NCBI GenBank assembly: GCA_029934515.1
Contig: JAOZMB010000020.1
Location: 1-33,908 of the forward strand
Reading direction: 5' to 3'
DNA: 33,908 nucleotides
DNA from: Bacteroidales bacterium
GTDB lineage: Bacteria; Bacteroidota; Bacteroidia; Bacteroidales; JAADGE01
This document shows, in pieces, positions 2,500 to 33,908 of the stretch. Positions within the stretch are counted from its first letter, which is position 1; the number at the start of each line of letters is the position of its first letter. The translations under genes and the position numbers were made by a program. The notes below the pieces were generated by a model, which was given only the letters and a program-made list of their open reading frames with translations, was not told where the DNA came from and searched no databases.

Positions 2500-3960
2500 T
2501 TATAATATAGATTTTATTTTATTCTTTTTTGACATTATAAGTAAACCCATAAAAGTGAACAATCCATTTACTATAAGTATTTCAAATCCAAACTTATAAC
2601 CCCAAAAGATTTGCTCTGAGTACATATCTAACAAAAACGACAGCAAAGGTGCAAGTATAGCAATTATTGGAATATATTTGTCTGTTGATTCTATTTTTGT
2701 AAATAATCCAAAAGCAAACAAACCTAGAATAGGTCCGTAAGTAAATGCAGCAACTTTAAATACAGCATTTATAACACTGCTATTGTTAATAGATTTAAAA
2801 ATTATTATTACAAAAAATAACAAAATAGAAAATCCTATATGTACAAGTCTTTTTTTTAATTTTGTTTTGCTTCCGTTGTCATTAATATTTAAGTTTAAGA
2901 AATCAACACAAAATGATGTTGTAAGAGCTGTAAGGGCGGAGTCGGCACTTGAAAAAGCGGCTGCCGTTATTCCAAGCAAAAAAACAATTCCTGCAAATAA
3001 TGAAAAATGTTCTAAGGCAAGCATAGGATAAAGTTCATCGGTACTGTCTGGCAAAACAATCCCTGACCGAGCCGCATAAATATAAAGCAAAGCACCAAGC
3101 GAAAGGAAAATAAGATTTACTGGAACGAGTATAATGCTGAACCAAAACATATTTTTACGAGCATCTTTTAAGTTTTTGCAAGTCAGATTTTTTTGCATCA
3201 TATCTTGGTCAAGACCAGTCATTACTATTGCAATAAAAGCGCCAGAGAAAAATTGTTTAAAGAAATTTGTTTTTGATTTAAAATCCCAGTCAAAAATTTT
3301 TGAATGTTCGCTTTGACTTATTAAATCAAAAAGACCTACAAAATCTGTATTTAATTCATTTAATATAATAAAAATACTGATAACTACCGCTGAGAGCATA
3401 AAAAATGTTTGTAAAGTATCAGTCCATACGATTGTTTTTATTCCTGCTTTGAATGTATATATCCAAATTAAAGAAATAGTTATGATTACAGTAACAGGAA
3501 AAGGAATATTAAAACTGTCAAAAAAACCAGCCTGTAATACTCCAGCGACAAGAAACAAACGAAAAGAAGAGCCAGTAACTCTTGATAATATAAAAAAAGC
3601 GGAGCCTGTTTTGTATGACCTGATTCCAAATCTTTTTTGTAGATAAGTGTAAATAGATACCAAGTTTAAACGATAATAAACTGGTAATAAAACTGTTCCG
3701 ATAACAAAATATCCAAGCAAATAGCCCAAGACCATCTGGAAGTAATAAAAATTTGAATTTGCAACTTCTCCGGGCAAAGAAATAAAAGTTACACCAGATA
3801 AAGAAGCACCTATCATACCAAAAGCAACAAGAAACCATGGAGATTTTTTATTAGCAGTAAAAAATGATGCCGTATTAGCTTTCCTGCCTGTTATGTAAGA
3901 AATAATAATTAGTAAGGAAAAATATCCAGCAATGACTACAAATACAGTTAATGGAGACAT
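2500..3960 (-). CDS. Sodium:solute symporter (SSS family)
   Basis: 486 residues, almost all in hydrophobic helices (about 13), the usual size and topology of the Na+/solute symporter family (SLC5-like). Early segments GMIGASLSGVTFISLPGEV and the later LGITAAAFSSADSALTALTT match the TM1 sodium-site region and the conserved 'SSADS.L.alst' TM8 motif of the family. Bacterial members import sugars, amino acids, sialic acid or similar; the substrate cannot be read here. It lies 47 bp downstream of the WD40-caspase gene on the same strand and may be co-transcribed with it, though a functional link is not obvious. Confidence 0.85.
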   Translation of the reverse strand: MSPLTVFVVIAGYFSLLIIISYITGRKANTASFFTANKKSPWFLVAFGMIGASLSGVTFISLPGEVANSNFYYFQMVLGYLLGYFVIGTVLLPVYYRLNLVSIYTYLQKRFGIRSYKTGSAFFILSRVTGSSFRLFLVAGVLQAGFFDSFNIPFPVTVIITISLIWIYTFKAGIKTIVWTDTLQTFFMLSAVVISIFIILNELNTDFVGLFDLISQSEHSKIFDWDFKSKTNFFKQFFSGAFIAIVMTGLDQDMMQKNLTCKNLKDARKNMFWFSIILVPVNLIFLSLGALLYIYAARSGIVLPDSTDELYPMLALEHFSLFAGIVFLLGITAAAFSSADSALTALTTSFCVDFLNLNINDNGSKTKLKKRLVHIGFSILLFFVIIIFKSINNSSVINAVFKVAAFTYGPILGLFAFGLFTKIESTDKYIPIIAILAPLLSFLLDMYSEQIFWGYKFGFEILIVNGLFTFMGLLIMSKKNKIKSIL

Positions 3961-4007: not shown

Positions 4008-6116
4008 TTATTTTTTCAATTTAAAAATAAAGTCTCCTCCTTCGTCGCCTACGTTAAGTATATCGCCGAACTGAGGAGTGTTAGGGCTGTTGTTGCCTAC
4101 TGGAATTTCTATTTCGCCGAACAATTCTGATGCAGACATATATTTTTGTTTATTGTTTTCTAATTTTTGTAACAGATATTTAAAAAATACGCTCTTGTTT
4201 GGAACAGTTTTAATACCTCCGCTTGTTATTGCGTTTCGGCTTTTTAAAGAATGTTTTTTTTTATAAGCAACAGTTTTTTTTTTTTGCAATTCTCTTTTTT
4301 TAAAAATACTGCCGCTGAAACAAGCATCGCTGATTAACAATGTATGTTTTGATTTAATACTTTTTATATTATTTGATAATGTTGTGTTGTAGATGTAGGT
4401 ATCAGGAAATCCGTTTTCGGCATTTGCGGGTATCCAATAACCAACAGCACTTTCTTTGTCGTAATCGCCGTGACCAGCATAAAAAATAATTAAATTATCT
4501 TGTTTTGTAATAATTTTTTTTAGTTTCAAAAATTCTCTGATAATTTGTTTTCTTGTGGGATTTAAAAGCAATGTAATATTTTCTTTTTCAAAACTGTATT
4601 TTTTATTTAAAATATTAGAAAATTTTGTTGCATCTTTTGTTGGTTCGTTTTTGAGGTCAGGAATTTCAGTGTCTTCGTACTCGCTTACGCCTATTATAAG
4701 AGCATAATATTCTCCTGTCTCAAAAGTATCTGAATTTATTTCGACCAGATTTATTTCAGCTGGCTTTTTACCAGATTTCCGTATTATTGTAAATGTTTCT
4801 GTATTTGTATTTTGTTTTATATCTGTTGCACTTACAGTAAATGTATTCTCTCCGTAAGCCAAAAAAATATTTTTTGAAAATTTATTATTTTCTACAAAAG
4901 CCTCTTCGCCGTTTACAAGGACTTCAAGTATTCCGCTTGCATCATTTACCTGTCCTTGAATTGTTATTTCTTTATTTTGAACAACTGGCTTCAAACCACG
5001 TGAAACTTCGGGAGAAGTTATTATTATTTCAGGAGGAGTTTTATCCAATATTGTCGGTTTGTGCTTTTTTTCCTTTTTAATTATTGTTATTTCAGGAGGA
5101 GTTTTATCTACTGTTATAATATTATTATTAGAACTTCCGACTCCTCTTAATTTATAAATTATTGCTGTTCCGTTCTTAAAGCCAGAAGCCAAAAATTTAC
5201 CATCTGGACTGAAACAAACATTTTTGACATAACTTGTGTTGTATAATGTAGTTTCCAGAGATTCAAAATTATCGTTGTTTTTTTTATAAATTTTTACAGT
5301 TTTATCCCACGAACCAGAAGCTAAAAATTTTCCATCTGGACTGAAACAAACACTATAAATAAAATTTGTGTGGTCTGAAATAGTTTTCAACAATCCAAAA
5401 TTATCGTTATTTTTTTTATAAATTTTCACAGTATTATCCGAAGACCCAGAAGCCAAAAACTTACTGTCTGGACTAAAACAAACGCTAAAAATCAAATTTG
5501 TATGTTCTGAGATAGTTTTCAAAAGTTCAAAATTATCTCCATTTTTTTTATAAATTTTCACAGTTTTATCATCTGATCCAGAAGCCAAAAACTTACCATC
5601 TGGACTGAAACAAACGCTTCTCACCCAATCGCTGTGTTCTGAGATAGTTTTCAAAAGTTCAAAATTATCTTCATTTTTCTTATAAATTTTTATAGTATTA
5701 TCTCTGGACCCAGAAGCAAAAAATTTTCCATCTGGACTGAAACAAACACTAAAAACCAAATGACTATGGTCTGAAAAAGTTTTAATAATTTTCATATCAG
5801 ATAAGCGAAGAATTGCTATATCATTACTGGTTTTATATCTTGAAAAAGCCATAAATTTTTCATCAGGGGAAAAACTTACAGTTCCCGCATAATTACTGCT
5901 GTTTCCTTTATGACTCCACAATTTATTAAAATTCTTGTCATATAATTCTACTGTATTATCTTCCACTGTTAAGGCAAAATAATTTCCTTTCAGCGAAAAT
6001 TCCAAATCACAAACAGGTCTTGCATATTTTAGTGTTTTATGTTTTACAGCATTAAATTGTGCCATGCTTATCATTGCAATAATCAGTAAACTTAAACTAA
6101 GAGTAATTCTTTTCAT
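4008..6116 (-). CDS. Exported WD40 repeat / Ig-like / caspase (C14) fusion protein
   Basis: 702 residues. A signal peptide (about 1-20) is followed by WD40-like repeats (about 25-323), an Ig-like beta domain similar to bacterial 'TPPEI...GxvxDxsGI..v.VNG' domains (about 338-446), and a C-terminal caspase-family peptidase domain (about 469-700). The catalytic pair is visible: His549 in FYAGHGDYD and Cys599 in ISDACFSGS. Four or five central WD units are nearly identical (unit about 44 residues containing SVCFSPDGKFLASGS), showing recent tandem duplication. The linker carries a duplicated DKTPPEI motif. WD40-caspase fusions are known in Bacteroidota and cyanobacteria; an exported one would work in the periplasm or outside. 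A probable promoter lies at 6142-6170. Confidence 0.9.
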   Translation of the reverse strand: MKRITLSLSLLIIAMISMAQFNAVKHKTLKYARPVCDLEFSLKGNYFALTVEDNTVELYDKNFNKLWSHKGNSSNYAGTVSFSPDEKFMAFSRYKTSNDIAILRLSDMKIIKTFSDHSHLVFSVCFSPDGKFFASGSRDNTIKIYKKNEDNFELLKTISEHSDWVRSVCFSPDGKFLASGSDDKTVKIYKKNGDNFELLKTISEHTNLIFSVCFSPDSKFLASGSSDNTVKIYKKNNDNFGLLKTISDHTNFIYSVCFSPDGKFLASGSWDKTVKIYKKNNDNFESLETTLYNTSYVKNVCFSPDGKFLASGFKNGTAIIYKLRGVGSSNNNIITVDKTPPEITIIKKEKKHKPTILDKTPPEIIITSPEVSRGLKPVVQNKEITIQGQVNDASGILEVLVNGEEAFVENNKFSKNIFLAYGENTFTVSATDIKQNTNTETFTIIRKSGKKPAEINLVEINSDTFETGEYYALIIGVSEYEDTEIPDLKNEPTKDATKFSNILNKKYSFEKENITLLLNPTRKQIIREFLKLKKIITKQDNLIIFYAGHGDYDKESAVGYWIPANAENGFPDTYIYNTTLSNNIKSIKSKHTLLISDACFSGSIFKKRELQKKKTVAYKKKHSLKSRNAITSGGIKTVPNKSVFFKYLLQKLENNKQKYMSASELFGEIEIPVGNNSPNTPQFGDILNVGDEGGDFIFKLKK
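5147..5783 (-). repeat. Tandem WD40-encoding repeats (~132-bp unit)
   Basis: This part of the WD40-caspase gene encodes residues 112-323 as successive units of about 44 residues. The central ones differ at only a few positions (for example ELLKTISEHSDWVRSVCF and ELLKTISEHTNLIFSVCF). Differences are concentrated in the residues just before SVCFSPDGKF, which in WD40 folds lie on the top face of the propeller. Confidence 0.75.
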
Positions 6117-6230: not shown

Positions 6231-6288
6231 TAAAATTTTAGTAAGATGCTTTTTAGTGTTTTGTTTATTATATTTTTTGCGTTAAGTT

Positions 6289-6314
6289 GCGGTGATAACA
6301 CAGCACAGGCGCAG
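6289..6314 (+). repeat. Degenerate copy of the repeat flanking the Fic gene
   Basis: Aligned without gaps, 21 of 26 bases match the repeat at 21538-21563 (shared pattern GC.GTGA.AA.ACAGCACA..CGCAG). It lies in the presumed rmlA leader. The short open frame through it (ATG at 6246) overlaps rmlA out of frame and is not called as a gene. Confidence 0.4.
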
Positions 6315-19858: not shown

Positions 19859-20494
19859 TTAATGTGTATTCCATTTTGCATTGCAACGTCCTCGACCACA
19901 ATATCCACGTTTTTTGATATTTTCAAAAGGTTCAATGAAACCAAAAAATTTATAACAAATTGGACAAACATAATCAATTTTAAATTGTTCGTTTAAATCA
20001 TCGAGTTGTTTTCTTACATCTATTGTATGACCTAACATTATTCCTATTGCATTACCAATAAACGGTATCAAAGCAAGAACGGCTCTCAATCCAGTTTTTT
20101 TTAATCCGCCTCCTCGCTCAATTTTACGTTTATCTTTTTTGTATTGTTCGTATATATTTTCAAGTTTATCAAATTTTGCCAAAATTTCTTTCTGTTTCAA
20201 TATTTTTGTATATTCAATTTGCTTGTTAAAATCAACTGAATCTATTTTTAATAACAAGGAATCAATGTCAATTTCAAAATCTGCAAGTTGCAATTTGCAA
20301 TCTTTTGTTAATTGGGTTTGTTTTATGCGATTATCATTTACAAAAGTTCCGTGTGTTGAGTTAAGGTCTTTTATTAGATATTCTTCTTCTCCTATTTTAA
20401 TTATTTCGGCATGTTCACGGCTTATTTTTCTATGTTCTATATCGACAATAATTGTATTCTTATTACTCCGACCTATTTTTATAATTCGTGGCAT
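19859..20494 (-). CDS. FHA-domain protein with coiled linker, hydrophobic hairpin and C-terminal zinc-finger-like motif
   Basis: 211 residues. Residues 1-78 are an FHA domain (phosphothreonine reader): IGRS at 7-10, SREH at 25-28 and DLNSTHGTFVN at 43-53, with all the phosphate-contact residues. A charged coiled region (about 90-128) leads to a hydrophobic glycine-rich stretch (AVLALIPFIGNAIGIMLG, about 138-155). The end has CPIC (177-180) and CGRGRC (199-204), a possible four-Cys zinc site. It starts 3 bp after the PP2C gene, so reader and phosphatase are made together. Likely partner: phosphorylated proteins made by the kinase at 22851-24869 (inference). Confidence 0.85.
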   Translation of the reverse strand: MPRIIKIGRSNKNTIIVDIEHRKISREHAEIIKIGEEEYLIKDLNSTHGTFVNDNRIKQTQLTKDCKLQLADFEIDIDSLLLKIDSVDFNKQIEYTKILKQKEILAKFDKLENIYEQYKKDKRKIERGGGLKKTGLRAVLALIPFIGNAIGIMLGHTIDVRKQLDDLNEQFKIDYVCPICYKFFGFIEPFENIKKRGYCGRGRCNAKWNTH

Positions 20495-20497
20495 TTT

Positions 20498-21343
20498 TTA
20501 TATTCTTAGAAAGTTATTTATTTTTGATTTTATCTTTGCAAAAAAACTTTTTTCTTTTGTTTTGATAATATATTTTGGTATTTCTACATTGTCAATCTGT
20601 ATTAAATATGCGGAATAATTATCTGTTGAGTTGGCATCGCAAAGTATGTTTATTGTTTGAATTTTTTCTTTGTTTGTCACTTCTGCTGATAATATTTCAC
20701 AAAGTTCTGTATCTGTTATACTTCCTGAAACTCCATCTGAACAAAGAAATAAATAATCATCTCTTTGTATGTCTTTTATAAAGTGAATATCTGGTTTTGT
20801 TTTTCTAATGTTTTTGCCCTGTACTGCTCTTGATATTTTATTGCGTTTGCTGTCTTTGGCTTCTTCTTCGGTCATTACTCCAGCTTTTATCAGCTCGTTT
20901 ATTACTGTGTGGTCTTCTGTTTGCCAAAGTATTTTTTCGTTTCGTATATGATAAAAACGACTATCACCACAATGCGTTACGCTTAAACCTTGTTTGTGTA
21001 TATGTACGGATACAAGCGTTGTTGCCATTCCTTTGGTTTCGGGATTTTTGTCAATATATTCATCAAAAGCTGTTTGTGTATTTTCAAATGCTTGTAAATA
21101 TATTTGGATATTACTGTCAGTGTGGCTTGAAGTCTCGCTGACAGTTTTTATATTTTTTGCAAACTCTCTACATGCCAAATCGCTTGCTGTTTCTCCTTTA
21201 TCAAGACCACCTACACCATCGCAAACAATAAATATGTTTGTATTATTATCGGCTTTATTCATGGCAGGAAAAATATTGTCTTCTTGATTTTTGCGCTTTC
21301 CTATTCCATTTAATGATAATGGTTGTTTTATTTCTATTTTCAT
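20498..21343 (-). CDS. PP2C-family Ser/Thr protein phosphatase
   Basis: 281 residues, a complete PP2C (PPM) catalytic domain without membrane segments. Metal and catalytic motifs: GKRKNQEDN (15-23, Asp22), VCDGVGGLDKGE (40-51, Asp42), GMATTL (105-110), THCGDSRFY (123-131), FLCSDGVSG in the second half and DNYSAYLIQI at the end. It would reverse phosphorylation by the neighbouring Ser/Thr kinase. Codons 67-77 coincide exactly with a 33-nt palindromic element found in two intergenic sites, so 11 residues (TVSETSSHTDS) look like an insertion in a loop. A promoter-like box and a 68-bp element lie in its leader. It is followed after 3 bp by the FHA gene. Confidence 0.92.
   Translation of the reverse strand: MKIEIKQPLSLNGIGKRKNQEDNIFPAMNKADNNTNIFIVCDGVGGLDKGETASDLACREFAKNIKTVSETSSHTDSNIQIYLQAFENTQTAFDEYIDKNPETKGMATTLVSVHIHKQGLSVTHCGDSRFYHIRNEKILWQTEDHTVINELIKAGVMTEEEAKDSKRNKISRAVQGKNIRKTKPDIHFIKDIQRDDYLFLCSDGVSGSITDTELCEILSAEVTNKEKIQTINILCDANSTDNYSAYLIQIDNVEIPKYIIKTKEKSFFAKIKSKINNFLRI
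21113..21145. repeat. 33-nt near-palindromic element, copy 2 (in frame inside the PP2C gene)
   Basis: It begins ACTGTCAGTGTGG and ends CTCGCTGACAGT. Relative to copies 1 and 3 the stem pair G-C at stem position 7 is replaced by A-T on both arms, keeping the pairing. It occupies exactly codons 67-77 of the phosphatase gene. Confidence 0.75.
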
Positions 21344-21371
21344 ATTTTCAGTATTTCGGAAATTTCAATAA

Positions 21372-21439
21372 GTAATTGTTAAAAAATAACTTTTTGATTT
21401 GTTTTTTGTAAAATACTTATTATCAGGTGTAAACCAATT
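21372..21439 (-). repeat. 68-bp leader element, copy A (upstream of PP2C)
   Basis: On the minus strand it reads from AATTGGTTTACACCTGATAA to TTAACAATTAC and ends 28 nt before the PP2C start. 66 of 68 bases equal the element at 32143-32210, which has the same orientation relative to its downstream gene. It contains GTTATTTTTTAAC, with GTTA/TAAC arms. Flanking AAGTAA and TTACTT sequences form a weak inverted repeat around it. Confidence 0.8.
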
Positions 21440-21455
21440 CGTAATTTACTTAATA

Positions 21456-21535: not shown

Positions 21536-21563
21536 GTGCAGTGAAAAAACAGCACAAACGCAG
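21536..21563 (+). repeat. 28-bp direct repeat, left of the Fic gene
   Basis: It starts GTGCAGTGAAAAAACAGCA and matches 22609-22636 at 26 of 28 positions in direct orientation. The pair encloses the Fic gene with little else (1101 bp from repeat start to repeat end). A degenerate relative is at 6289-6314. Confidence 0.75.
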
Positions 21564-21577
21564 GATAATTTATTTTT

Positions 21578-22561
21578 TTAATTATTTTTATTTATTAAGT
21601 TTACGATTACTTTAATCATTGTGTCTTTTTCTTCTGGTTTGCTTATTGCTATCATTAAAGTTAATGCTACCAAAGCATTATCGGCAATTCTTTTTTGCCC
21701 TGTTTGTGTAAACAATAATTTATTTTTTTCAAGAAAATAAAGGAACAAAAATGCTGCAATTCTTTTGTTTCCGTCAGAGAAAGAATGATTTTTGATGATA
21801 AAGTAAAGCAAATTAGCGGCTTTTTCTTCTATGCTCGGATACAAATCAACACCGCCGAAAGTTTGGTAAATTGTTGAAACAGAACTTCTGAACGAGTTGT
21901 CTTTCTCATGTCCGAATAAATCGCTGTTGCCATATATTTGTTTGGCGAGACTGATTTTATTGATTGCCTCTTCATAATTTAAATGATAAATTTCTTTACA
22001 AGATATATTTTCTATTTTTAAAGAACGATAATCGTATTGGTCAAGAATTTCCAAAGCATAAGAATAATCCGAAATTATTTTTATTAATCCTCGACTCTCA
22101 TCGTTTGAGAGTTCTTTATATTCAAGAGCATTACCAAGTATTTTTATTGTTTGTTGCAACTCGTTAAGCTGTTCTGATTGTTTTTTGAGCTTTTCTTGAT
22201 TAAGGGCATAACCTTTTATTAAATAGTCTTTTAATAACTGGTTTGCCCAAATCCTGAATTGTGTCCCTCGTTTAGATTTTATTCTGTATCCGACAGAAAT
22301 TATAACATCAAGATTAAAAAAATCAACTTTGTAGGTTTTTCCGTCTTTGGCAGTTGTTGCAAAATTTGCAACAACTGAATGCCTTTCTAATTCTTGTTCT
22401 TTAAAAACATTATTTATATGCCTTGAAATAACAGACTTATCGCGTTCAAAGAGAACAGATATTTGATTTAAATTTAACCAAACTGTTTCTTTTTCAAGTT
22501 TTACATCTATTGTAGTTTTGCCTTCGGAGGTTTGGTATATTTTTATTTCAGAATTTTGCAT
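21578..22561 (-). CDS. RhuM-like N-terminus fused to a Fic/DOC domain
   Basis: 327 residues. The first ~115 residues (IYQTSEGKTTIDVKLEKETVWLNLNQIS, then FFNLDVIISVGYRIKSKRGTQFRIWANQLL) are the RhuM 'virulence protein' domain. The second half is a Fic/DOC domain with the active-site motif HSFSDGNKR at 259-267 (HxFxDGNKR), so the catalytic His is kept. Fic proteins usually AMPylate or otherwise modify target proteins; DOC members phosphorylate EF-Tu. RhuM-Fic fusions are widespread and often accompany restriction or toxin-antitoxin loci, but no antitoxin gene or inhibitory (S/T)xxxE(G/N) partner is recognised nearby. It lies between kinase and phosphatase genes and is enclosed by direct repeats. 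Confidence 0.9.
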   Translation of the reverse strand: MQNSEIKIYQTSEGKTTIDVKLEKETVWLNLNQISVLFERDKSVISRHINNVFKEQELERHSVVANFATTAKDGKTYKVDFFNLDVIISVGYRIKSKRGTQFRIWANQLLKDYLIKGYALNQEKLKKQSEQLNELQQTIKILGNALEYKELSNDESRGLIKIISDYSYALEILDQYDYRSLKIENISCKEIYHLNYEEAINKISLAKQIYGNSDLFGHEKDNSFRSSVSTIYQTFGGVDLYPSIEEKAANLLYFIIKNHSFSDGNKRIAAFLFLYFLEKNKLLFTQTGQKRIADNALVALTLMIAISKPEEKDTMIKVIVNLINKNN

Positions 22562-22608: not shown

Positions 22609-22636
22609 GTGCAGTGAAAAAACAGCATAAGCGCAG
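22609..22636 (+). repeat. 28-bp direct repeat, right of the Fic gene
   Basis: It starts GTGCAGTGAAAAAACAGCA and ends AAGCGCAG; two mismatches against 21536-21563. It lies 47 bp upstream of the Fic start codon and 9 bp before the AACTAAC minisatellite. Confidence 0.75.
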
Positions 22637-22645
22637 ATAAATAGA

Positions 22646-22670
22646 AACTAACAACTAACAACTAACAACT
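22646..22670 (+). repeat. Minisatellite, 3.6 copies of AACTAAC
   Basis: Perfect 7-bp period. The unit is a one-base variant, in shifted register, of the array at 10201-10251, pointing to a dispersed family of 7-bp arrays. Confidence 0.8.
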
Positions 22671-22763
22671 CTATGTATATATGCAAACATATAACGCATA
22701 TATGCAAAAAACTTGCCTGCGCAAGCGTGTTTTTTGTAATAGATATATATTATATCATATATA

Positions 22764-22806
22764 CAAAACTCCCTCAAAAGTTTTTCAAACTTTTGAGGGA
22801 GTTTTG
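22764..22806. terminator. 20-bp perfect hairpin downstream of the kinase gene
   Basis: CAAAACTCCCTCAAAAGTTT (22764-22783) pairs without mismatch with 22787-22806 around a 3-nt loop. It begins 44 bp after the kinase stop and is the strongest hairpin in the window. It is probably the terminator of the kinase operon. If the kinase end is a DGR variable region, it also stands where DGR targets often carry a hairpin. A weaker hairpin (TTGC/GCAA flanked by A and T runs) follows near 22709-22738. Confidence 0.7.
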
Positions 22807-22850
22807 CATAAAAAAAAAGTAAAAAGGTAAAAAGGTAAAAAACTAAAAAG

Positions 22851-24869
22851 TTAATTTGTCTCGGCAAGACGAAAGCCCACGTCGTAGTCGCTATCACTTG
22901 GCGTGTAGCCGTCACGATTAGCCGAACGACAACCCTCACTGTAGCAGTCCCAAGAGCCGCCGCGTATAACACGAAGCGAGCCGCTTCCTGCATATATGGG
23001 GTTTGTTGAGTTTTCGCTTTGACTGTAAAAATCAGATTTGTAAACGTCTTGGCACCATTCCCAAACATTGCCACTCATATCGTAAAGTCCATAACCGTTG
23101 GGACTTTTTTGACCAACAGGATGAGTTCCACTACCTGAATTTTTATCATACCAAGCTACATCGTCAATATTGTTACTACCAGAATATTTGTAATTCTCTC
23201 CTCCTTTTGCGGCATATTCCCATTCAGCTTCTGTTGGCAGTCGGTAATTATGTCCTGTCATTTTATTTAATTTTTGCAGAAATTTTTGTATATCGTTCCA
23301 GCTTACTTTTTCCACAGGGCGTTTATCTCCTTTAAAGTAGCTTGGATTATTGCCCATTACAGCTTTCCACTGTGCTTGTGTTACTTGGTATTTTCCTATA
23401 TTAAAACTGCTTAGCGTTACACTGTGTATTGGTTTTTCATCGCTATAATCGTTACTTCCCATTTGAAATGTTCCTCCTTTTACAGATACAAAATCAAAAT
23501 CTAATGCTTTTACTGTTTTTGTAATTTCTTCTATAACCTCTTCTTTAACTTTTTCTGTTATTTTTGCTTCCGCTATTAAATTATCTTCTACAACCTCTTC
23601 TTTAACTTTTTCTGTTATTTTTGCCCACTGTTGCCAAATAAAAAGAATAATTATAATAATTACTGCAATAATAGGTATTAATAGCATACTGTTTATTTCC
23701 CATGGTTGCCAAATAAAAAGAATAATTATAACAACAATTAATGCAATAATAGATATTAATATTTTGTTTTTCTTTCCCTTGTTGCTACTGTCAGTTTTGC
23801 TTGATTCTACTCTGGCATTTTTTAATTGTTCTATTTTCTTACTTGCTTGTTGTTTATATTTTCCGTTCTTGTATTTTTGCAAGTATTTTTCAAACTGCTG
23901 TATGTCTGTTTTATTTTTAATCTTGTCCCAAAGTTCTGTTTCTGGGTCGTCTATCATGGTTTCGTCTTCGTCTTGTTCTTCTTTGACAAACTTCTTATGT
24001 TTATTGTATATAATAGTTTCGTCTTCGTTGTTACTGTTTTTGTTGCTTAGAGTCTTTCTGTCACTTGTAAATGCTTTTTCAAACTCTTTGCATGTTTGGT
24101 ATCTGTCTTTTGGATTTTTAGCAGTTGCTTTTTTAATAATTTTGTTCAGTTGAGTGTGTTCTGTTAGTTCTGGCATTGGTTCGTTTACAATTTTGGTATA
24201 AATAGCAAAATTAGATAAACTTTTGCTGTCATAAGCTGGTTTTCCTTTTAGCACATAATACAATACTACTCCGAGTGAATAAATATCACTTCTTTTATCG
24301 ATATTTTTGCTATCTTTTACTTGTTCTGGGGACATATAAATAGGCGTTCCCATTTGTGCTCCTGTGTTTGTGTCGTTATCATTGCTGTCTAATAATTTCG
24401 CAATTCCAAAATCAAGAATTTTAACATTATTGTTCTTTCCTGTTTCGATGAAAATATTTGAAGGTTTTACATCACGGTGAACGACTCCTTTATTATGAGC
24501 AAACTCAAACGCATTCAAAGTCTGTTTAAATATTTTAATAGCTTCGTTCTTTTTCAGTTTACCTTTTTGTTTTATGTATCCAGTCAAACTTTTGCCTTCC
24601 AAAAGTTCCATCACTATTGCGAGCATATTTGTTCGTTTCTCAAAGTCCACAACTTTAACAATATTTTGATGCTCCAATCTCGCCATAATTTTAGCTTCGT
24701 TCACAAATCTTTTTGCAATTTTTTCTTTTCTTGTCAAAATAGGGTCAAGAATTTTTATTGCTACTTTACGGTCATCAAATGTTTCATGCTCTGCTTCAAA
24801 TACTTCTGCCATTCCTCCCTTTCCTATTAATCTAATTATGCGGTAATTTAGTATTTTTTCATTTATCAT
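22851..24869 (-). CDS. Transmembrane Ser/Thr protein kinase with C-terminal FGE-sulfatase (C-type-lectin-like) domain
   Basis: 672 residues. Hanks-type kinase (about 1-270): GKGGMAEV (16-23), VAIK with Lys39, HRDVKPSN with Asp133, DFG 153-155 and MGTPIYMSPEQ (173-183). An acidic linker holds DETIIYN (Thr285) and DETMIDD (Thr304), plausible phosphosites. Two hydrophobic helices (about 369-388 and 395-413) end in near-identical ILFIWQPW/ILFIWQQW, then KITEKVKEEV occurs twice: a tandem duplication visible in the DNA (about 23580-23760). The C-terminal ~215 residues (457-670) are an FGE-sulfatase/SUMF1 domain (GGTFQMGS, YRLPTEAEWEYAA, GLYDMSGNVWEWCQD, RVIRGGSW, VGFRLA). Cys642 and Cys647 share the spacing of the FGE active-site cysteines, but most kinase-fused domains act as binding modules. 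Its last 40 codons are compositionally odd (22863-22982). Confidence 0.93.
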   Translation of the reverse strand: MINEKILNYRIIRLIGKGGMAEVFEAEHETFDDRKVAIKILDPILTRKEKIAKRFVNEAKIMARLEHQNIVKVVDFEKRTNMLAIVMELLEGKSLTGYIKQKGKLKKNEAIKIFKQTLNAFEFAHNKGVVHRDVKPSNIFIETGKNNNVKILDFGIAKLLDSNDNDTNTGAQMGTPIYMSPEQVKDSKNIDKRSDIYSLGVVLYYVLKGKPAYDSKSLSNFAIYTKIVNEPMPELTEHTQLNKIIKKATAKNPKDRYQTCKEFEKAFTSDRKTLSNKNSNNEDETIIYNKHKKFVKEEQDEDETMIDDPETELWDKIKNKTDIQQFEKYLQKYKNGKYKQQASKKIEQLKNARVESSKTDSSNKGKKNKILISIIALIVVIIILFIWQPWEINSMLLIPIIAVIIIIILFIWQQWAKITEKVKEEVVEDNLIAEAKITEKVKEEVIEEITKTVKALDFDFVSVKGGTFQMGSNDYSDEKPIHSVTLSSFNIGKYQVTQAQWKAVMGNNPSYFKGDKRPVEKVSWNDIQKFLQKLNKMTGHNYRLPTEAEWEYAAKGGENYKYSGSNNIDDVAWYDKNSGSGTHPVGQKSPNGYGLYDMSGNVWEWCQDVYKSDFYSQSENSTNPIYAGSGSLRVIRGGSWDCYSEGCRSANRDGYTPSDSDYDVGFRLAETN
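22863..22982 (-). other. Candidate DGR-type variable region at the 3' end of the kinase gene
   Basis: Codons 630-669. G+C over 22861-22990 is 76 of 130 bases (58%), twice the surroundings. The constant block GSLRVIRGGSW has 2 adenines in 33 nt and VGFRLA none in 18. All five Arg codons are CGN. Between them surface positions read GAC TGC TAC, GAC GGC TAC and AGC GAC TAC GAC, as expected if AAC codons of a template were randomised at A. Avoiding A at positions that must stay constant is a hallmark of DGR template/variable repeats. No template copy or reverse transcriptase is in the window. Confidence 0.55.
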
Positions 24870-25789: not shown

Positions 25790-26293
25790 TTAATAAAATT
25801 TTACAATAAGATTTGTTCTTCCTATACGAATATTATCATCAGATTTCAAAATAATTTTATCATATTTAGAAATTCTTTCTTCATTGTAAATCGTTCCGTT
25901 TATGCTTGGTCTTCCTGTTTCGCTTCCATCATCACTAATTATAAGTTCAAGACCCCAAGTTTGTTTTTTCATTTCAATTAGACAATGTTTTCTGCTTATG
26001 TATATATCTCCATCAATTGAAATATCTGCTTTTCTTCCAATAATATTTTTACCTATTTTCAAAATATGTTCTTTCCCTGTTTTTGTTTCAACAAGTTTTG
26101 CATTTTGAATTTTCTGGTTATTATCAGTTCCTATTTCAGTTTTTTCTCCTTCTAGTTCTTCCGCATTTGGTATTGCAAATACAATGGCATGTTTACATTT
26201 TGTGCATCTGACCATTGCTTTTTTCTTATTCTTAGGCAATTTTCTTTCTGAAATTACCAAAATATTACCGCATTTAGAACATTTTACTTTCAT
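25790..26293 (-). CDS. Zinc-ribbon / FHA-domain protein
   Basis: 167 residues. Residues 1-42 are a small zinc ribbon of the MJ0042 type, with CSKC (5-8) and CTKC (30-33). A linker with KTEIGTD (Thr52) precedes the FHA domain (about 72-167): GRK 86-88, SRKH 100-103 and SINGTIYN 120-127 are the phosphothreonine-pocket residues. A Thr-x-Ile site just before an FHA domain recalls GarA/OdhI-like proteins, where the kinase phosphorylates the N-terminal tail and the FHA domain then binds it; that is inference here. It starts 20 bp after the acidic membrane protein gene, so the two are probably co-transcribed. Confidence 0.85.
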   Translation of the reverse strand: MKVKCSKCGNILVISERKLPKNKKKAMVRCTKCKHAIVFAIPNAEELEGEKTEIGTDNNQKIQNAKLVETKTGKEHILKIGKNIIGRKADISIDGDIYISRKHCLIEMKKQTWGLELIISDDGSETGRPSINGTIYNEERISKYDKIILKSDDNIRIGRTNLIVKFY

Positions 26294-32095: not shown

Positions 32096-32142
32096 AAGAT
32101 GAAATATTTTTAATAAATTAGATAAGTAAATTATGAATTATA

Positions 32143-32210
32143 AATTGGTTTACACCTGATAATAAGTATTTTACAAAAAACAAATAAAAAAGTTATTTTT
32201 TAACGATTAC
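32143..32210 (+). repeat. 68-bp leader element, copy B (upstream of the nuclease array)
   Basis: 66 of 68 bases match copy A at 21372-21439 read on the other strand. It ends 45 nt before the ATG at 32256. Contains AATTGGTTTACACC, GATAATAAGTATTTTAC and GTTATTTTTTAAC. No convincing -7 box is seen just upstream. Confidence 0.8.
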
Positions 32211-32255
32211 TAAGTTAATGAACAAGTAATAATTGCTTACAAAATCTTAAATAAA

Positions 32256-32939
32256 ATGGAACACGAAAAAAAAATTAAGAAAGTTTTTACTGCATGGAAC
32301 ATGAACGAGTTGGAGAAAGCATTTGGTTTAAAAAAAACTATTAAAAATAAATACTTAGAAAAGTTGTTAGATAATAATGTAGAGCTTAATGATTTTGAAA
32401 ATCAAAATATTAAGTATTATCAGAAGTTGTTATTTGAGAATGTACATTATTACAATGAAGCAGAATTGTCTGGTAAATTTATTACTCCGATAATTTCACT
32501 TGTTAATTTTGACACAACTGATTTTAGTTATTTTGCTGAAAGGGAGTTTTCAGCTGTTGTTGGTAATTACAAAATGTCTGGACGAACAGACGGAATGATT
32601 GCAACAGGTAAATGGGAACCAGAGATTCCTTTCTTTTTTATTAGTGAATACAAAAGAGAAGTAGAACCACGAAGAAATCCAATGGCACAAAATTTAGCTG
32701 AAATGATTGTTGCACAGAAACTTAATAATAATAAATTCCCCGTTTACGGAGTTTATATTGTTGGAAAGCAATGGCATTTTATGATACTAGAAGATAAAAC
32801 TTATACAGTTAGCAAGTCTTTTGATGCAACTGAAAATGATATTTTTGATATTTTTAAAATTCTTAAAAATCTCAAAACAACTATCATTGAAATATTAAAA
32901 AAAATGAACGCTCAAAAAGAAGAAAAAATTAAATCTTAA
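32256..32939 (+). CDS. PD-(D/E)XK nuclease-like protein, array copy 1
   Basis: 227 residues, no signal or membrane segment. The centre reads KMSGRTDGMIATGKWEPEIP then FFFISEYKRE and a downstream MAQNLAEMIVAQ: Asp112, Glu131-x-Lys133 and Gln145 have the order and spacing of a PD-(D/E)XK nuclease core, with acidic residues of NEAEL (67-71) as possible first-helix partners. Proteins of this general kind are frequent in Bacteroidota as uncharacterised, often duplicated genes; nuclease activity is inferred from the motif only. It is the first of at least three head-to-tail copies with a period of exactly 696 bp. The 68-bp leader element lies just upstream. Confidence 0.7.
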   Translation: MEHEKKIKKVFTAWNMNELEKAFGLKKTIKNKYLEKLLDNNVELNDFENQNIKYYQKLLFENVHYYNEAELSGKFITPIISLVNFDTTDFSYFAEREFSAVVGNYKMSGRTDGMIATGKWEPEIPFFFISEYKREVEPRRNPMAQNLAEMIVAQKLNNNKFPVYGVYIVGKQWHFMILEDKTYTVSKSFDATENDIFDIFKILKNLKTTIIEILKKMNAQKEEKIKS

Positions 32940-32951
32940 ATATTAAATAAA

Positions 32952-33635
32952 ATGGAAGACAAAAAAAAAATTAAGAAAGTTTTTACTGCATGGAACATGA
33001 ACGAGTTGGAGAAAGCATTTGATTTGACAGAACTAAATACTAATAAACATTTACAAAATTTGTTAAATACAGAAGTTGAATTAACTGATTTTGAAAATCA
33101 GAATTTAAAATATTATTTAAAGATGTCTGCCAATAAGATGAAACAGTGGAACGAGCAAGAACTTATAACAAAATTTATAGGTCCGATGATTTCGCTTGTT
33201 AATTTTGACACACCAGATTTTAATTATTTTGCAGAACGATATATCTCAGCTATTGTTGGAGATTACGAAATGTTGGGTAGAGCAGACGGAATGATTGCAA
33301 CAGGAAAATGGGAACCAGAGATTCCTTTCTTTTTTATTAGTGAATACAAAAGAGAAGTAGAACCACGAAGAAATCCAATGGCACAAAATTTAGCTGAAAT
33401 GATTGTTGCACAGAAACTTAATAATAATAAATGCCCAGTTTACGGAGCTTATATTGTTGGAAAGCAATGGCATTTTATGATACTTGAAGGTAAAACTTAT
33501 ACAGTCAGTAATGCTTATGTTGCTACGAGAGATGATATTTTTGATATTTTTAAAATTCTTAAAAATCTCAAAACAACTATCACTGAAATATTAAAAAAAA
33601 TGAAAGCTCAAAAAGAAGAAAAAATTAAATCTTAA
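32952..33635 (+). CDS. PD-(D/E)XK nuclease-like protein, array copy 2
   Basis: 227 residues, the same length as copy 1. Catalytic-type residues are kept: ADGMIATG (Asp112), ISEYKRE (Glu131, Lys133) and MAQNLAEM (Gln145). The first 23 residues and residues ~112-170 are nearly identical to copy 1, while the segment between (LTELNTNKHLQNLLNTEVEL and onwards) differs at about half of the positions. If the family binds DNA or a partner through this segment, the copies would have different specificities. It starts 12 bp after the stop of copy 1 and is probably in the same transcript. Confidence 0.7.
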   Translation: MEDKKKIKKVFTAWNMNELEKAFDLTELNTNKHLQNLLNTEVELTDFENQNLKYYLKMSANKMKQWNEQELITKFIGPMISLVNFDTPDFNYFAERYISAIVGDYEMLGRADGMIATGKWEPEIPFFFISEYKREVEPRRNPMAQNLAEMIVAQKLNNNKCPVYGAYIVGKQWHFMILEGKTYTVSNAYVATRDDIFDIFKILKNLKTTITEILKKMKAQKEEKIKS

Positions 33636-33647
33636 ATATTAAATAAA

Positions 33648-33908
33648 ATGGAAAAAGAAAAAAAAATTAAGAAAGTTTTTACTGCCTGGGGTATGGATGA
33701 GTTAGAAGAGGAGTTCGATTTAAAAAGAACTATCGAAAATAAAAACTTGGAAAAATTATTAAATGACAATATTGATATTAGTGATTTTGAAAATCAAATA
33801 ATTAAATATTATCAAAAATTATTATTTGAGAACGTACATTATTACAATGAGACAGAACTTATAACAAAATTTATAGGTCCTATAATTTCACTTGCTAATT
33901 TCGATACG
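33648..33908 (+). CDS. PD-(D/E)XK nuclease-like protein, array copy 3 (partial, right edge)
   Basis: The first 87 codons, open to the window edge: it begins MEKEKKIKKVFTAWGMDELE and ends IISLANFDT. The catalytic block lies beyond the window. The segment KYYQKLLFENVHYYNE (53-68) is identical to copy 1, whereas LITKFIGP (71-78) equals copy 2, showing recombination between copies. It starts 12 bp after the stop of copy 2 with the same spacer. Confidence 0.75.
   Translation, partial: MEKEKKIKKVFTAWGMDELEEEFDLKRTIENKNLEKLLNDNIDISDFENQIIKYYQKLLFENVHYYNETELITKFIGPIISLANFDT

Follow-up and report, generated by a model that had tools for sequence, protein, structure and literature searches.

The gene studied here occupies positions 22851-24869 on the minus strand of the window, which is the whole 33,908-nucleotide stretch of Bacteroidales DNA analyzed. 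Its open reading frame encodes 672 amino acids and fuses a Ser/Thr kinase, hydrophobic segments and an FGE domain; the gene is a probable target of a diversity-generating retroelement (DGR). The protein kinase domain (residues 9-260; 24090-24845, minus strand; Pfam Pkinase E 1.5e-55) contains VAIK, HRDVKPSN and DFG, read by eye, which we take to be the catalytic motifs. Two hydrophobic segments (residues ~370-387 and ~395-412; 23634-23762, minus strand) arose from a tandem duplication visible as direct repeats D18 and D20, and a charged linker connects them to an FGE-sulfatase/C-type-lectin-fold domain (residues 459-669; 22863-23495, minus strand; Pfam FGE-sulfatase E 8e-52). The duplication (D18, D20) is ~75-78 bp long, spans 23618-23761 and doubles the hydrophobic segment; a second one (D13, 23527-23567 and 23584-23624) doubles the linker. 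Given two hydrophobic segments of this origin, the lectin domain could be outside or inside the cell, and the duplication could alter the side of the membrane on which the sensor domain sits.

The closest solved structure to the FGE domain is TvpA of Treponema denticola (PDB 2y3c), itself a DGR variable protein and the best match both by sequence (E 2e-46) and by fold (Foldseek on a predicted model, E 1e-19). TvpA differs from the protein described here in that the matched chain has 294 residues, mostly aligned to the FGE domain, whereas here the domain is fused to a kinase. Mean pLDDT of the predicted model is 75, falling below 50 in parts of the gene-end variable region (VR) described below; Pfam, sequence and model all place this region in a C-type-lectin/FGE-type fold, the model with low confidence in the VR itself. 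We assume that a catalytic formylglycine-generating enzyme has two active-site cysteines in its C-terminal segment. In this domain one cysteine is constant (CRSANR), whereas alignment by eye puts the second at a variable codon that encodes cysteine in only one of four copies, which is why we rejected the assignment of the domain as an enzyme. Judging from these residues, catalytic FGE activity is probably absent.

Several neighbors on the same strand carry Pfam domains related to signaling. Upstream of the kinase gene are a caspase-fold peptidase (C14; 24967-25725, Peptidase_C14 E 3e-21), a possible effector, and an FHA domain protein with a zinc-ribbon match below its cut-off (25790-26293); on the other side are a PP2C phosphatase (20498-21343) and another FHA domain protein (19859-20494). 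The presence of FHA, PP2C and caspase neighbors on one strand suggests phospho-signaling towards a protease. Between the kinase and the PP2C/FHA genes lies a RhuM/Fic-like gene (21578-22561), which matches the PADLOC candidate system PDC-S23 (E 2e-139). No match to NACHT, STAND or MoxR was found among the 26 window ORFs scanned. Elsewhere in the window, a fusion of WD40 repeats with a caspase at 4008-6116 is the second caspase of the window, with DNA repeats of 132-bp period (D1) whose copies are 62-81% identical to the reference. At 32212-33908 a gene of ~696 bp is repeated in tandem three times; the window end cuts the last copy, and the first two gave no Pfam match. An 83-nt inverted repeat (21364-21446 and 32136-32218; 92% complementary) has its arms 10.7 kb apart.

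An earlier reading of the sequence alone had described the last 40 codons of the kinase gene as about 58% G+C in surroundings of about 29%, and measurement agrees: positions 22863-22982 have 58.3% G+C compared to 28.3% for the window. This value is reached or exceeded in 12 of 33,789 sliding 120-nt segments, all starting at 22862-22875, and the best segment starting outside 22700-23000 has 46.7%. On the coding strand, 22863-22982 consists of 18 A, 31 C, 39 G and 32 T. The last ~46 codons of the gene are the G+C peak of the window.

The assembly from which the window comes has 3,343,782 bases in 201 contigs and is 97.97% complete. Searching with 150 bases taken from the kinase gene end returned the query itself (100%) and three other full-length copies at 89, 86 and 82% identity; the four copies are the 3' ends of four genes on different contigs. 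The other three genes encode a 789-residue PEGA-repeat protein (contig C123) and two caspase-domain proteins of 631 (C141) and 598 (C11) residues, each with a C-terminal FGE domain and, by eye, an apparent signal peptide at the N-terminus. A fifth gene end, on C55, is cut by the contig end and has another core, with nearly the same 3' end and downstream sequence. All four complete genes and the truncated fifth are open to the stop codon. FGE gene ends on C165, C42, C76 and C197 share only the protein motif and lack the features of the VR. Type IX secretion (T9SS) sorting domains were found in two proteins of this genome, which points to Bacteroidota and makes a cyanobacterial origin improbable. 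On C141, a MoxR-type AAA ATPase (L051:14714-15709; Pfam AAA_3 E 7e-64, bpMoxR E 4e-13) is encoded on the other strand at a distance of 3.1 kb from the caspase-FGE gene, and an AAA/PD-DExK gene lies in the interval; MoxR ternary systems are known DGR partners according to the available part of one report (PMC10907252).

Alignment of the four copies defines a VR core of 114 nt (22878-22991, minus strand), in which variation falls on the adenines of templates from other genomes. The sequence-only reading had proposed the interval 22863-22982; the variable core is slightly longer. On average, the four copies are 63% identical over the upstream FGE coding sequence and 94% over the 45 nt that precede the core. 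VR columns facing bases other than adenine in the template of a related genome (G210) are 97% identical, those facing adenine 59%. Identity is complete from GFRL to the stop codon, and the two blocks of 100 columns that follow average 93% and 86%. The 94% identity before the core indicates that gene-end copying extends past the mutated part, and since 18 of 19 A-containing columns in those 45 nt are unchanged, the mutated stretch has a sharp start.

Within the core, 36 columns vary among the four copies and 30 of these contain A. This count is confounded as a test of adenine mutagenesis, as the same association exists in the upstream FGE sequence (odds ratio 6.8, compared to 34 in the VR); variable columns tend to contain A anyway in an A+T-rich gene, and we therefore relied on templates of other genomes. 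Used as a predictor, the G210 template has variable columns at 27 of 42 A positions and 5 of 78 others (p 1.6e-11), and the G193 template at 26 of 33 and 6 of 87 (p 1.6e-14). The G006, G005 and G036 templates give 26 of 39 versus 6 of 81, 25 of 37 versus 7 of 83, and 25 of 33 versus 7 of 87. These five templates make up the test, which left out G056, G037 and the second templates of G193 and G210. Other positions are spared: of the columns that contain C, 26 of 30 in the core show no variation, compared to 16 of 128 upstream (p 7e-15), and third-codon columns without A number 38 constant to 2 variable in the core plus invariant end, against 21 to 30 upstream (p 3e-8). Six of the 36 variable columns lack A. 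Three are at the first base of NNC codons, where a template A may have been lost in all four copies, and three are plain T/G differences (one in C141, two in C11) unexplained by A-mutagenesis.

Copies that differ almost only at template adenines and share an unchanged 3' end bear out the central proposal of the sequence-only reading, that the kinase C-terminus is a DGR variable region. Some of its details need correction. The codons that it quoted are present, yet among the residues that it called constant (GSLRVIRGGSW, VGFRLA) the L of GSL and the V of VGFRLA are variable in the four-copy alignment, and in AGC GAC TAC GAC the serine (AGC) is constant. It had named synonymous-only change between sister strains as part of a pattern against a DGR; copies within this draft genome differ mostly by amino acid, at 20 of 46 residues. 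Taken as a statement about origin, active or relic, it is almost certain that the last ~46 codons of the kinase gene are a VR written by a DGR.

The gene ends in an invariant stretch, GGCTTTCGTCTTGCCGAGACAAATTAA (22851-22877, minus strand), a candidate IMH (initiation site of mutagenic homing), with 27 of 27 columns identical in four copies and one difference in the fifth. All five gene ends are followed by similar sequence of ~190 nt comprising a T-rich repeat, a hairpin and a second conserved element; the C55 copy has a gap in the last part. The T-rich repeat, CTTTTTAGTTTTTTACCTTTTTACCTTTTTAC (22819-22850, minus strand), was identified by copy comparison as conserved downstream of the five VRs. 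Next comes a 24-bp hairpin with a 3-nt loop (22760-22810, minus strand; z = -9.9 versus shuffles, computed for single-stranded DNA). Its pairing starts at the 41st base after the stop codon, in good agreement with the strong hairpin that had been noted 44 bp after the stop. Three of the 24 pairs have changed on both sides yet kept pairing, C123 has lost one pair, one of the five copies has a different loop, and the 3' arm ends in a T run. The rest of the cassette (22656-22759, minus strand) contains GCATATATG repeats and the ACGCTTGCGC element, with 86% mean identity over untranslated columns 100-200 in four copies. A 28-nt repeat starting GTGCAGTGAAAAAACAGCA... is present at 6287-6314, 21536-21563 and 22609-22636 of the window, and its complement comes after the VR cassette of the C28 and C55 copies and, in slightly diverged form, of the C141 copy.

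The sequence TTTTTTACCTTTTTACC occurs four times in the assembly, each time behind a VR, while a reversed-pattern control gave one occurrence; the C123 copy has one mismatch. The 3' flank of the G210 VR resembles that of the kinase VR, TTTTTTACCTTTTTACC included, and this sequence is absent behind the G210 template. The VRs of the other relatives examined were not followed by it, and it did not appear in the contig that carries reverse transcriptase (RT) and template in G193 (C765). In the Bordetella phage BPP-1 system, too, an invariant VR 3' end is followed by an inverted repeat whose pairing outweighs its sequence, and BPP-1-type hairpins have GC-rich stems of 7-10 bp with GRNA loops, 4-34 bp from the VR, according to the part of that work available (PMC3240598). 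The arrangement here is IMH-like in having an invariant 3' end and a downstream inverted repeat, but its size and loop are unlike the BPP-1 type: the stem is AT-rich and 24 bp long, the loop has 3 nt, and the hairpin starts 40 nt past the stop.

From its sequence, the cassette could be a recognition tag, a terminator, both, or a passenger of gene-end copying. The hairpin may be a plain terminator, a role that it could keep beside one in the target site. One further idea is that a portable ~190-nt 3' tag, made of the invariant end, the T-rich TTTTTACC repeat, the covarying hairpin and the second element, marks gene ends as targets; one or two templates could then redirect the sensors of the kinase, two caspase-like proteins and the PEGA protein together, across the genome. 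We put this forward tentatively, as a possibility with the odds against it. The T-rich repeat would then be the target-side recognition element, as suggested by its presence behind the VR and absence behind the template in G210.

According to the sequence-only reading, the RT and the template would have to be elsewhere in the genome. A search of the assembly delivered near-identical gene ends (four 150-bp VRs); neither RT nor template was found in the draft. No RT match was obtained in the 201 contigs with Pfam RVT_1, with a profile of five DGR-RT sequences (E<=10) or with the G210 RT as query, which matched seven of seven other genomes chosen as known carriers. Searches for the template with VR DNA (E<=10) yielded nothing beyond the VRs and short fragments, and the same was true of the C55 VR among the 40 of 76 candidates scored. 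The missing template is expected to read close to GSNRVIRGGSWNNN..NCRSANRNNNTPSNSNNNIGFRLA.

Relatives possess what is missing here. RVT_1 matches were found in 30 of 60 genomes, the 60 including our genome, which had none. We take the motif IG..TSQ together with Y.DD to mark a DGR-type RT; the screen covered 30 RT loci and regions fetched by place, some RVT_1 matches having no locus and five of 13 regions no motif. The closest complete arrangement is in G210, from the same order and another family, with a VR at the contig start, an RT at 1098-2111 and a template at 2119-2247; all 14 mismatches between template and VR over 107 nt face template A. In the same family, G005 and G006 each carry a DGR-type RT that is immediately followed by an AAC-rich template; the G006 RT match contains one in-frame TAG. 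Homologous templates were found in G005, G006, G210, G193 and G036. These arrangements in genomes of the same family and order further support the DGR reading. A repeat scan for pairs differing only at A found nothing on 30 short RT loci and such pairs in three of 13 longer pieces; its silence is uninformative because a control comparison of two VRs likewise gave no pair, which may reflect mutation of both copies.

Nine of the 14 motif-bearing RTs in relatives are on contigs of at most 6.1 kb, which makes loss of the RT from a draft plausible; those on longer contigs include L033 (32.5 kb) and L041 (12.0 kb). The bin of our genome does, however, keep a contig of 3,974 bases, which makes this argument a moderate one. 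Loss of RT and template during assembly or binning looks likelier to us than loss of the system.

VR DNA was absent from the 59 other genomes at E<=0.001, and in a wider draw of the order it matched five of 392 other genomes at 68-76% identity, among the matches listed and with at most two scored per genome. A 20-base pattern of the VR end had three GTDB loci, none in an FGE-like gene, and these were set aside as chance matches; neither this pattern nor one of the VR start matched anything in IMG/VR. Five phage records and one plasmid record returned by blastn were rejected as VR copies, since they cover only bases 2-60 of the query, the FGE motif GNVWEWC. Three IMG/VR loci encode relatives of the VR with 43-60% protein identity. 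The viral contig L094 (IMGVR_UViG_3300031788_001476; stops at 3902 and 6147) has a VR-like FGE gene end (68% G+C) and, 2.2 kb downstream of it, a template-like AAC-rich stretch. Among the viral-contig relatives L114-L136, G+C is higher in the final 114 nt of the FGE match than in the match as a whole in all 21 examined of 26 found, for example 64% versus 42% in L118 and 65% versus 45% in L126, with differences of only 1-3 points in some relatives. Such G+C-rich FGE ends on viral contigs are as expected if several are DGR targets.

Our preferred explanation, to which we assign a probability of roughly 78%, is that the kinase gene is a remote DGR target whose 3'-end VR is rewritten in trans by an RT and a template located elsewhere. 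Its observed basis is the anatomy of the VR, the A-restricted variation, the shared 3' cassette, the domain fusions, and an RT with a matching template in related genomes. The RT would copy the template RNA, with AAY codons randomized at their adenines, and the cDNA would overwrite the VR at the C-terminus of the FGE/lectin domain, with the invariant GGCTTTCGTCTTGCCGAG... end as the anchor. The rewritten lectin face would recognize a different ligand, and the fused effector, a kinase here and elsewhere two caspase-like proteins and a PEGA-repeat protein, would be switched on or aimed accordingly. The protein is probably a ligand sensor for kinase/caspase signaling; we infer both homing in this organism and signaling to the neighboring FHA, PP2C and caspase genes.

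It is less probable, indeed unlikely, that the VRs are relics written by a DGR since lost from the lineage, with the five copies as frozen variants. Such a history would fit the failure to find RT and template in a ~98% complete assembly whose bin retains contigs as short as 3,974 bases, and the available part of a cyanobacterial study describes a Nostoc paralogue that retains remnants of TR-VR homology but has no RT in its vicinity, although the genome does contain DGRs (PMC7517822). However, all five genes, the truncated one on C55 included, keep an open frame down to the stop codon; in four copies, the 97% identity of non-A columns and complete identity from GFRL to the stop leave little time for drift since the last homing; and the short RT contigs of relatives make draft loss a plausible account of the gap.

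A special case of the preferred explanation, in which RT and template reside on a separate replicon such as a phage or plasmid and diversify chromosomal targets in trans, seems to us a distant prospect. The L094 viral contig, with its template-like stretch and VR-like gene end ~2.2 kb apart, suggests that such templates can be viral-borne. Against this, no copy of the VR was found outside the genome, exact patterns of its two ends had no match in IMG/VR, phage and plasmid blastn matches are limited to the FGE core motif, and the three IMG/VR relatives have just 43-60% protein identity. Scarcely credible, finally, is an explanation with no DGR at all, whereby an ordinary family of FGE paralogues was homogenized by gene conversion while its surface residues were under positive selection. 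Since the copies also have in common the 3' untranslated cassette and the 45 nt that precede the core, gene ends have indeed been duplicated or converted, and the FGE genes on C165, C42, C76 and C197 have similar ends with none of the VR features. Yet conversion does not place differences on the template adenines of other genomes (p 6e-11 to 2e-14), nor does it spare C and third-codon positions.

A remotely targeted kinase gene belongs to a known type of system, with examples in cyanobacteria and Thiohalocapsa, and is a further case of it. Cyanobacteria have DGR variable proteins in which the partner is a Ser/Thr kinase or an orthocaspase, as well as remote targets that lie away from an RT. 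As far as the available part of that report goes (PMC7517822), the proteins share with ours a C-terminal CLec domain, a 3'-terminal VR and fusion to kinase- or caspase-type domains, and many targets there are likewise distant from the RT; the genome studied here differs in that RT and template were not found and that five targets have a common ~190-nt 3' cassette. The accessible part of the work on Thiohalocapsa PB-PSB1 and other multicellular bacteria describes DGR antigen sensors of the FGE/CLec type, with some diversification in trans inferred (PMC10907252). Here, too, there are several targets per genome, and FGE/CLec sensors are associated with modules of the kinase, caspase-like and cell-death types. 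Unlike those systems, our window ORFs lack NACHT, STAND and MoxR, and the kinase has FHA, PP2C and caspase neighbors, the MoxR-type ATPase being near the C141 target. FGS domains have also been reported with DGRs in VMAP-ternary systems, in the part of that paper available (PMC7159879). In a limited literature search, no title found named kinase or caspase DGR targets in Bacteroidota.

These findings suggest that a single lectin-type sensor module is diversified on a kinase and, in parallel, on caspase-like proteins outside cyanobacteria, far from any RT. A large RT-centered metagenome survey would, by its own statement, miss such remote targets, according to the portion available (PMC8144416). 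Scanning for VRs first, as the sequence-only reading did by eye, can reveal them even when a draft has no contig with the RT. Through the common 3' cassette, a target-recognition signal becomes directly testable. With the same patch on four other proteins, two of them caspase-like, one mutator may tune several sensors in this organism.
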